Shown here piece after piece: positions 16,901 to 18,447 of a DNA stretch of 64,000 nt. The notes under the pieces are model-generated. The model did not search any database and was not told the DNA's origin. It worked only from the letters and a program-made list of their open reading frames with translations. Both the position numbers and the translations under genes were made by a program. Every line of letters begins with the position of its first letter. Positions within the stretch are counted from its first letter, which is position 1. Source of the DNA: Bradyrhizobium sp. Ash2021 (GTDB lineage Bacteria; Pseudomonadota; Alphaproteobacteria; Rhizobiales; Xanthobacteraceae); NCBI RefSeq assembly GCF_031202265.1, contig NZ_CP100604.1:3392501-3456500 (forward strand), read 5' to 3'.

Positions 16901-17004
16901 CCGTCGTCCCCGCGAAAGCGGGGACCCATAACCACAGGACGCGGTGTGAGGCACACTGATCAAACAAGGCAACTAACACTTCCCATTCAACAAACCGCAC
17001 GGCG
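16901..17004. repeat. REP-like palindromic element, left part (interrupted by the IS110-family element)
   Basis: Starts cgtcgtccccgcgaaagcgg then gggacccataaccacagga, identical in its first 45 bases to the inverted end of the complete element at 23725-23842. The matching right end (tatgggtcctggccttcgca, ending gggacgac) is found at 18384-18412, beyond the insertion sequence. The element was therefore split by insertion. Confidence 0.8.
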
Positions 17005-17082
17005 TGATGGTGTGGACGGCCCCCTACGGCATCGATTGTGCCAGAATGAGGTTGTTTCAAATCTCAGACAAGGGAGCCGTCC

Positions 17083-18123
17083 GTGGACCAGATTATCCGC
17101 ATTGGAATGGATACGTCGAAGCATTTTTTTCAGCTGCACGGGGTGGATGCCGCCGAGCGGCCGGTGTTGCGCAGGAAGCTGCGACGCAACGAGGTGTTGG
17201 CGTTTTTTGCCAAGCTGCCGCCAACCGTGATCGGGATCGAGGCCTGCGGCGCGGGGCACTACTGGGCGCGGGAGTTGCGCAAGCTCGGCCACGAGGTGAA
17301 GCTGATGGCGCCGCAGCACGTGAAGGCCTACATCAAGCGCAACAAGAATGACGGACGCGACGCCGAGGGGCTGTGCGAGGCGATGAGCCGGCCGACGATG
17401 CAGTTCGTATCGGTGAAGACCGAGGAGCAGCAGGCGGCGCTGATGCTGATAGGGGTCCGCCAGCAACTGATCGCCAGGCGCACCCAGCTTGGCAACGCGA
17501 TCCGCGGCTATGCGACGGAGTTCGGTCTGATCACCGCCAAGGGTCTCGACAAGCTCGAGCCGCTATTGGCGCGGATCGCTCAGGAAGAGAGATTGCCAGA
17601 GCTGGCGCGCGAGATGTTTGCGGCGCACGGCAGGGAGTATGCGCGACTGCAGGCCGAACTGAAGGCGATCGAGGCCAGATTGATGGCTTGGTACCGCGCC
17701 AATGCCGACAGCCGACGTCTGGCAAAGATTCCGGGGATCGGGCCGATTGGCGCCACCGCGCTGGTCATGAAGGCGCCGGATCCTCGCCTGTTCCCTTCCG
17801 GCCGGCACTTTGCGGCCTGGATCGGGCTGACCCCGAAAGACCATTCCACCGCCGGCAAGACCCGGATCGGCAAGATCACCCGCGCCGGAGATGAGATGCT
17901 GCGTAGCGTGCTGGTGGCGGGAGCAACCGCCGTGATCCAGCAAGCCAGAAAAAGCCGCGGCCGTGCGTCGCCCTGGCTCCTTGCGCTGCTGGCGCGCAAG
18001 TCGCCAAAGCTCGCAGCGGTGGCGCTCGCCAACAAGATTGCCCGCATCGCCTGGAAGCTGTTGGTGACGGGCGAGAGTTACGACGGCGCGCGGATGCCTG
18101 ACGCATCCGCACTCGCCGCTTAA
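17083..18123 (+). CDS. IS110-family transposase (DEDD recombinase)
   Basis: 346 residues. The N-terminal RuvC-like DEDD domain shows Asp in IRIGMDTSKHFFQL, Glu in VIGIEACGAGHYW and the Asp pair in RNKNDGRDAEGLCEA. The C-terminal Tnp_20 domain has KIPGIGPIGATALVMKAP and the Ser motif GLTPKDHSTAGKTRIGK. These recombinases use an element-encoded RNA to pair donor and target DNA. The start is GTG with GGGAG nine bases upstream. The frame is intact, so the element could be active. Confidence 0.9.
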   Translation: MDQIIRIGMDTSKHFFQLHGVDAAERPVLRRKLRRNEVLAFFAKLPPTVIGIEACGAGHYWARELRKLGHEVKLMAPQHVKAYIKRNKNDGRDAEGLCEAMSRPTMQFVSVKTEEQQAALMLIGVRQQLIARRTQLGNAIRGYATEFGLITAKGLDKLEPLLARIAQEERLPELAREMFAAHGREYARLQAELKAIEARLMAWYRANADSRRLAKIPGIGPIGATALVMKAPDPRLFPSGRHFAAWIGLTPKDHSTAGKTRIGKITRAGDEMLRSVLVAGATAVIQQARKSRGRASPWLLALLARKSPKLAAVALANKIARIAWKLLVTGESYDGARMPDASALAA

Positions 18124-18369
18124 GAGATCAGTCGGGCGGCGGGTTCGCCGCACCGGCTGAGCCGGAGCTGCAAGAGGAGACAGATGGTAGGATCGATCGA
18201 TCCGAGGTGCGAGACAATCCGTGGGACCCATTGGCCCGTAAAGGTCGCTGGCGTGTTTGGAACTCGCGTCGCGGAAAACCATCTTGGCCAGCGGCCACCA
18301 ACCGCATCAACAGGCCGGACATATGGATGCAAGCGATCCGATCAAACCGTCAAAAAGCTCTTGCGGCAC
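18124..18369 (+). ncRNA. Candidate bridge/seek RNA region in the 3' end of the IS110-family element
   Basis: 246 bases of non-coding sequence between the transposase stop and the right inverted repeat. It can fold: gcggcggg-ttcgccgc and ccggctgagccgg are adjacent hairpins near 18134-18168, and ggatcgatcgatcc is a perfect palindrome near 18190-18203. At 18223-18231 it contains gggacccat, identical to the conserved part of the REP element in which the IS sits (gggacccata at 16921-16930). In IS1111-type elements the guide RNA is encoded in this position. Exact RNA ends are unknown. Confidence 0.5.
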
Positions 18370-18383
18370 GGGGGCCGTCCACA

Positions 18384-18447
18384 TATGGGTCCTGGCCTTC
18401 GCAGGGACGACGCTGAGGGTGTGTCGTCGTGTTCGCCGGGACGACGG
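18384..18447. repeat. REP-like element, right part, plus a second short repeat
   Basis: 18384-18412 is the right end of the REP element split by the insertion sequence. 18420-18447 (gtcgtcgtgttcgccgggac, ending gacgg) is a further related hairpin fragment directly before the downstream ligase gene's stop. Confidence 0.65.

Follow-up and report, generated by a model that had tools for sequence, protein, structure and literature searches.

An IS1111-type element in a Bradyrhizobium REP repeat and the predicted guide RNA of its 3′ end

The element and the repeat it interrupts

The window, the whole 64,000-nt stretch of DNA analysed here, carries an IS1111-type element on the plus strand, delineated from its subterminal inverted repeats, from comparison with empty sites and from the homologous ends of its relatives. 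Read with the extensions that serve as a criterion of the IS1111 group, 7 bp on the left and 3 bp on the right beyond the repeats (7/3), it spans 17005 to 18385, with the extensions TGATGGT on the left and ATA on the right; in an alternative reading the same element ends at 18383 instead of 18385. A first-pass annotation of this DNA had drawn the element from 17005 to 18412; its start agrees with ours, but the element extends only to about 18385 (or 18383) and the remainder to 18412 is target DNA.

Other features that this annotation had read from the sequence were borne out. The subterminal inverted repeats, TGTGGACGGCCCCC on the left (17011-17024, plus strand) and GGGGGCCGTCCACA on the right (18370-18383, plus strand), are identical in 14 of 14 bp, as is characteristic of the IS1111 group. 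The claimed intact DEDD transposase/recombinase is encoded at 17083-18123 (plus strand) by a reading frame of 346 amino acids with a GTG start and no internal stop, and matches PF01548 and PF02371 above cut-off and NF033542 at 323.7 bits. Proteins of the group combine a DEDD (RuvC-like) N-terminal domain with a C-terminal PF02371 domain over about 330-350 amino acids, an architecture and length found here, and carry near the C-terminus an S/T-G motif that reads SG, TG or occasionally TA. Here this motif is GLTPKDHSTAG at residue 248, in the TA form. The first match to the pattern, present in 151 of 153 relatives, reads TA in 81, TG in 47 and SG in 23. With T-A in place of S-G at about residue 256, as in those 81 of 151 relatives, the nucleophile may be a threonine. 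The 3′ non-coding stretch, likewise a feature of the group, runs from the stop codon to the right repeat (18124-18369) and has the 246 nt previously reported. Compared with empty sites, there is no target duplication, as no bases are repeated beyond one or three common letters.

The genome of the host (9.7 Mb, two contigs) contains four full-length copies, namely the window element, a nearly identical one and two at 80% identity. All four have ATATGGGTCC as right flank, and their left flanks are GGCG/AGCG or TGGT, in agreement with their left guides (see below). A search of the same genome with the IS110-family model gave 17 matches, 11 of them above cut-off, including at least three other kinds of element. 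Rfam searched at gathering thresholds gave no match within the window.

The element interrupts a CGTC-type REP repeat with two arms; it sits in the right one, and the left one is whole. The arms (16902-16930 and 18384-18412) form an inverted pair with 86% complementarity. The uninterrupted left arm of this BIME-like repeat (16902-16934, minus strand) reads TGGTTATGGGTCC on the minus strand, located at C1:3409422-3409434 in the genome. CACGGCG (16998-17004, plus strand), the part of the interrupted arm to the left of the element, constitutes the left target; the right half follows the element at 18384-18412 (plus strand) as TATGGGTCC continued by a CGTCG-type palindrome, of which the first two bases, TA (18384-18385), may belong to the element rather than to the REP. 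In 5 of 29 related loci (L238, L239, L242, L243 and L244) the right arm lies uninterrupted, as GGCGTATGGGTCC, between the same two genes. By its right-hand gene, locus L235 is the closest relative (97%), but another repeat between the genes made it unusable as an empty site.

Exact free sites are numerous in the host genome: 22 of GGCGTATGGGTCC and 30 of TGGTTATGGGTCC, compared with 1 and 0 for the backward-read controls. Among these sites we counted 7 mixed pairs, 4 TGGT pairs and 1 GGCG pair whose members face opposite ways at a distance of about 70 bp, in a BIME-like manner. The window element occupies the GGCG arm of its pair, and the TGGT arm is free of it. By description, we tentatively assign the repeat to the CGTC-tagged REP families of Bradyrhizobium (PMC3733652), which likewise start with CGTC and have paired arms; the assignment is our own.

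A predicted two-loop RNA and its target guides

Relatives were drawn from 265 genomes of the genus, 391 genomes of the family and 80 named loci, supplemented by further copies that were fetched. The 232 locus/strand matches were reduced to 189 with recognisable ends, to 153 after removal of same-site copies, and finally to 151 non-redundant elements with a long enough 3′ region, which were aligned. The RNA structure alignment (A1) comprised 42 members with at least 54% identity and a short 3′ region.

RNAalifold on these 42 diverse members yielded a structure with two internal loops, a target loop formed by 18221-18231 with 18248-18258 and a donor loop formed by 18274-18284 with 18318-18327. 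Its 29 base pairs are kept in 96.1% of cells, structure and counts both stemming from the same alignment, whereas slid versions of the structure were paired in only 24.5-35.1%. The covariation score was 0.270 compared with 0.147 for shuffled alignments (0 of 500 shuffles as high), and the single-sequence fold of 18124-18383 had a z of -2.98. The element, this structure and both target guides are shown by sequence comparison. The predicted bridge/seekRNA spans 18168-18366 on the plus strand, which is the extent of the covariance model and not the transcript ends; we infer that it is transcribed, processed and bound by the transposase.

Both target guides lie inside one internal loop of this conserved structure. 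The 5′ side holds the right target guide GGGACCCAT (18223-18231, plus strand), complementary to the right-target positions RT8 to RT3, the core and the base before the core. This REP-identical stretch had already been proposed as the guide, on the understanding that a position outside the target loop would count against it; it would pair with the right half-site, and in relatives it follows their targets. The 3′ side holds the left target guide TGGCG followed by the core TG (18249-18255, plus strand), whose letters are those of the left target on its top strand. The first-pass annotation had rightly noted the REP match at the right junction, and its idea of RNA-guided REP targeting is supported, but the left junction CACGGCG is informative as well. 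It had overlooked the guide for the left target, those for the donor, and the choice of one REP arm type. The right guide precedes the left guide, the order of IS1111 seekRNAs, in which the complement of the top strand lies 5′ of the match to the bottom strand. GATGG at 18183-18187 was also considered as the left guide and rejected, as it is constant although left targets differ; it may pair inside the RNA with 18278-18283.

We compared guides and flanks over 82 unique guide pairs. The right guide scored 6.93 against its own flank and 3.44 against permuted flanks, the left guide 4.02 and 2.61, each with 0 of 20,000 permutations reaching the observed value. Of the four crossed or wrong-strand controls, two did not exceed chance and two did so slightly: the right flank against the right guide left uncomplemented (3.50 vs 3.23; 59 of 20,000) and the left flank against the complemented left guide (2.74 vs 2.60; 1022 of 20,000). 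When all RNA columns were scanned blindly against all flank positions, using the 82 of 86 guide pairs left after removal of short flanks, two unbroken diagonals appeared, one joining LT-5 to LT-1 with the same letters at 18249 to 18253, the other joining RT3 to RT8 with the complement at 18228 to 18223. At any one guide position, 54-67 of the 77 unique guide sets used for per-position counts matched. Mismatches between guide and flank were seen on the right side in L067 and L070 and on the left side in L015; these may be off-target insertions or decayed, and in L067 and L070 the right guide was possibly altered after insertion.

Such agreement could merely reflect co-inheritance of guides and flanks within clades, without any pairing. 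Many of the elements are indeed related, and in the simple scan off-guide columns also reached z values of 5 to 7, for example with RE2. We therefore counted independent pairs, which remove shared ancestry, on a transposase tree of 138 elements; 8 further elements had been left out for their short flanks and 5 for an odd register of the left end (L015, L056, L143, L192 and L115). The diagonals stayed and the off-diagonal columns dropped out: at 11 of 11 guide positions the expected column ranked first among all columns. The ratios of own to partner's target were 14:0, 21:0, 19:1, 19:0 and 20:0 for LT-5 to LT-1, and 10:0, 13:0, 13:1, 11:2, 8:0 and 13:0 for RT3 to RT8. Both guides read LT-1, which immediately precedes the core (20:0 with 18253, 13:0 with 18231). 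LT-6 to LT-8 and RT9 to RT11 had no collinear column among the independent pairs. Identical elements also occur at many separate loci of one genome with the same half-sites, and we regard co-inheritance without pairing as scarcely credible.

The guides were further examined in elements outside the alignment. A covariance model (R1) built from A1 was tried on 31 further loci from the host genome and 398 genomes of the phylum and matched 25 of them. Among 26 matches, one was without ends and ten were dropped because the repeat did not start like [GAC]TGGA, leaving 15 elements, some of them related to alignment members (e.g. L281 and L283). Here the right guide scored 5.87 vs 3.32 against RT and the left guide 4.27 vs 2.99 against LT, both with 0 of 20,000 permutations as high; crossed controls were at chance. 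As the homologous RNA bases match other targets in the relatives and in these 15 outside elements, the match between guide and target goes beyond chance.

It could still be argued that the transposase protein itself reads the REP hairpin, and that the REP-like letters at the 3′ end are a relic of an earlier insertion or of ancestry shared with the repeat. Elements of other families are known to target REPs, and the interrupted repeat is palindromic. Yet the RNA bases shift with the target in relatives that do not insert in REPs, such as the L005 family at an MCNLYSIT-type gene start, the elements outside the alignment behave alike, and relics are not expected to face each other across a single conserved internal loop. 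As a general account of target choice this explanation is already refuted, and we consider it very improbable here.

We conclude from these comparisons that this IS1111-group element very probably relies on an RNA encoded at its 3′ end to select its target. In the mechanism that we propose, the 3′-end RNA with its two internal loops would find the target through the first loop, the right and left donor guides of the second loop would recognise the junction at which the ends of the excised element are joined into a circle, and the recombinase would exchange strands at the TG-type core, giving insertion in one orientation. The window element would be programmed for the GGCG-type REP arm, and sisters with another left guide for the TGGT-type arm.

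An IS1111 element with a guide RNA is of a known kind, and the mechanism appears well supported. The closest counterpart is ISPa11, an IS1111-family element targeting a REP of P. aeruginosa, which according to PMC11187229 shares the type of element, the downstream non-coding region, the guide order in the RNA and a REP target. It belongs to another bacterial group and uses another REP family, the likeness being one of description, and its RNA was purified with its transposase (PMC11187229), whereas that of the window element is predicted. Unlike in ISPa11, the left guide of the window element tells two types of REP arm apart. In IS1111, the less studied branch, the relatives offer a test of RNA-guided target choice that nature has repeated many times.

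Sister elements in different REP arms

Among 38 non-redundant elements with a transposase identity of at least 73%, the right flank was TGGGTCC in 33, TGGATTC in 3, TGGGCCC in 1 and TGATGGG in 1, and in the three with TGGATTC the guide was altered to match. The concern that other copies might lie at unrelated sites, raised beforehand as a possible refutation, was thus not substantiated.

The clade of the window element, defined by the left end TGATGG and at least 65% identity, comprises 47 insertions with a constant right guide and a variable left guide. GGCGTG guides were found in GGCG (5) and AGCG (2) arms (7 of 7), and GGTTG-type guides in TGGT (22), TGGC (2) and GGGT (2) arms (26 of 26). 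There was no crossing between the GGCG and GGTT classes (Fisher 2.3e-7, with insertions that are not independent of descent). The smaller guide classes agreed or nearly agreed with their flanks: GCGGTG guides had the flanks GCGG (2), GGGG (1) and GTGG (1), GGGTG guides GGGG (4), GAGTTG guides GAGT (1) and GAGC (1), GGAGTG guides GGAG (1) and CAAG (1), and GGCTG guides GGGC (1) and TGGC (1).

This difference in the left guide between sisters shows that the two half-sites are separately reprogrammable in nature. Altered guides with altered targets in relatives are likewise described for ISEc11 and ISXne4, a natural redirection within IS1111, in PMC11187229; there the whole target region is altered, whereas in the sisters of the window element it is the left guide alone. 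If the guide model is true, the preference among GGCGTATGGGTCC, TGGTTATGGGTCC and GGCGTGGGTCC targets is expected to move with 18249-18253. In PMC3733652, CGTC repeats were associated with transposase genes in only a few cases, regarded as fortuitous; in the present case an entire clade of insertion sequences appears tied to, and programmed for, CGTC-type repeats.

A related IS1111 clade is represented in the host genome at 1230-2590 of locus L005 (C1:1679.4-1680.7 kb), with the right flank TGCAATCT shared by L145-L147, L149, L151, L153-L156, L159, L177, L179, L206 and L207. Read in frame, the flank of L005 gives CNLYSIT, and the target resembles a gene start (ATG-TGC-AAT), presumably that of a SRAP/YedK-type gene. 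The left flanks of this clade often end in ATG, with L155, L177 and L207 as exceptions. In L194, ATATGATGGGTCC takes the place of ATATGGGTCC as the right flank; its additional TGA is similar to the left end of the element and may be the scar of an earlier event.

Element ends, donor loop and candidate handshake bases

By homology the element has the left extension TGATGGT and the right extension ATA, while the empty site implies either extensions of 7 and 1 bp (7/1) or the loss of 2 bp of target. In the 7/3 reading the junctions of the window element give GGCG-TGGGTCC, compared with GGCG-TA-TGGGTCC in the empty arm. As the uninterrupted arm has TA between the guide-matched halves, 7/3 restores the empty site only if 2 bp were lost. 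Elements of the L139 group lie in the same repeat with TA retained on the left, a clean 7/3 insertion. Together, these junctions and the empty arm indicate that the window element and its clade have 7/1 ends, or else lose the TA. That half-sites of the REP clade stand 2 bp further apart than the rule, through shifted ends or a dropped TA, forms part of a wider reading that seems to us evenly balanced.

That the element truly ends at 18383, with the right-hand TA being the REP's own, is the simpler account of the target, as no base is lost and GGCG plus TATGGGTCC equals the empty site of the five related loci, and TA occupies this position in 75 of 85 uninterrupted REP arms. We nevertheless find it somewhat doubtful. 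The right end ATA is identical in sister clades where it is owned by the element, as in the L139 group with its TA also on the left. A candidate -35 box, TTGCGG (18361-18366, plus strand; consensus score 8 of 12), would in a 7/3 circle stand 17 bp from a TATGAT that spans the joined ends and forms only in that circle (score 8 vs 6). Junctions scoring at least 8 were found in 44 of 44 REP-clade elements in the 7/3 reading, one clade and hence not independent cases, in none in the 7/1 reading and in 16% of shuffles (1.00 vs 0.16), and scores of at least 9 were no commoner than in shuffles (0.023 vs 0.018). The putative junction promoter is weak evidence in favour of 7/3. A search of 257 genomes of the genus for joined right and left ends (tandem, exact, spacing 2-14) found none. 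An excised circle would be the intermediate that the donor loop reads.

Within this loop, the left donor guide ATATG (18321-18325, plus strand) has the letters of the right extension and the core. Positions 18321-18323 equal the right extension (RE1 to RE3) in 75, 76 and 75 of the 77 guide sets. Outside the alignment, where 24 of the 26 matches were used (L294 and the second L282 match were left out), 5 of 5 letters of extension and core agreed in 21 of 24, which establishes this guide by comparison. The right donor guide ACCATC (18278-18283, plus strand), complementary to the left end GATGGT, has weaker evidence than the left one (LE7 with 18278, 8:1 of 22 independent pairs), and could also form internal pairs with 18182-18187. 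For three IS1111 members, donor guides have already been proposed in the legend of Extended Data Fig. 10 of PMC11208160.

Next to the left donor guide, a G at 18326 (plus strand) matches RT3 of the target and is a candidate handshake base of the donor loop. It equals RT3 in 52 of 77 guide sets (30.9 permuted), by 9:0 in independent pairs, and in 12 of 24 elements outside the alignment (6.2 permuted; 122 of 20,000). A second such base, RT4 with 18327, agreed in 36 of 77 and was outside the best columns. In the target loop the candidate is 18256 (plus strand), which equals LE3, the first donor base, in 55 of 77 (29.6 permuted) and by 4:0 in just 6 independent pairs; the window element itself has a mismatch, U against A.

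The bridge RNA of IS621 in the IS110 group likewise has two loops, two target and two donor guides, a core dinucleotide and handshake bases, but is encoded at the left end and has the left guide before the right guide (PMC11208160 and PMC11208158). Its handshake bases prolong the right guides and pair with top-strand positions 6-7, left of the core (PMC11208158). In the present RNA it is the left guides that are prolonged, and the handshake bases fit bottom-strand positions to the right of the core; after a turn of 180 degrees the two layouts coincide. There are therefore signs that IS1111 runs the reaction of IS621 with the strands swapped, as a mirrored handshake. In searches of open-access papers we found no report of a handshake in IS1111. 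Should the mirrored handshake prove true, it would account for the reversal of guide order between IS110 and IS1111, which the seekRNA authors left open, and it predicts which strand exchanges first; we infer the order of strand exchange in this sense. Against the model stand the few changes from which the evidence at the left end derives and the lack of own-loop avoidance at 18256: avoidance as in IS621 was not borne out in the target loop, where 18256 equals RT3 in 17 of 77 with 8.8 expected. The donor loop does lean toward avoidance (14 of 77, 19.6 expected).

Six elements (L006, L226, L227, L228, L114 and L287) have the core AG in place of TG, with the left end, the right flank and the guide letters in the RNA all altered to match, a natural change of the core.
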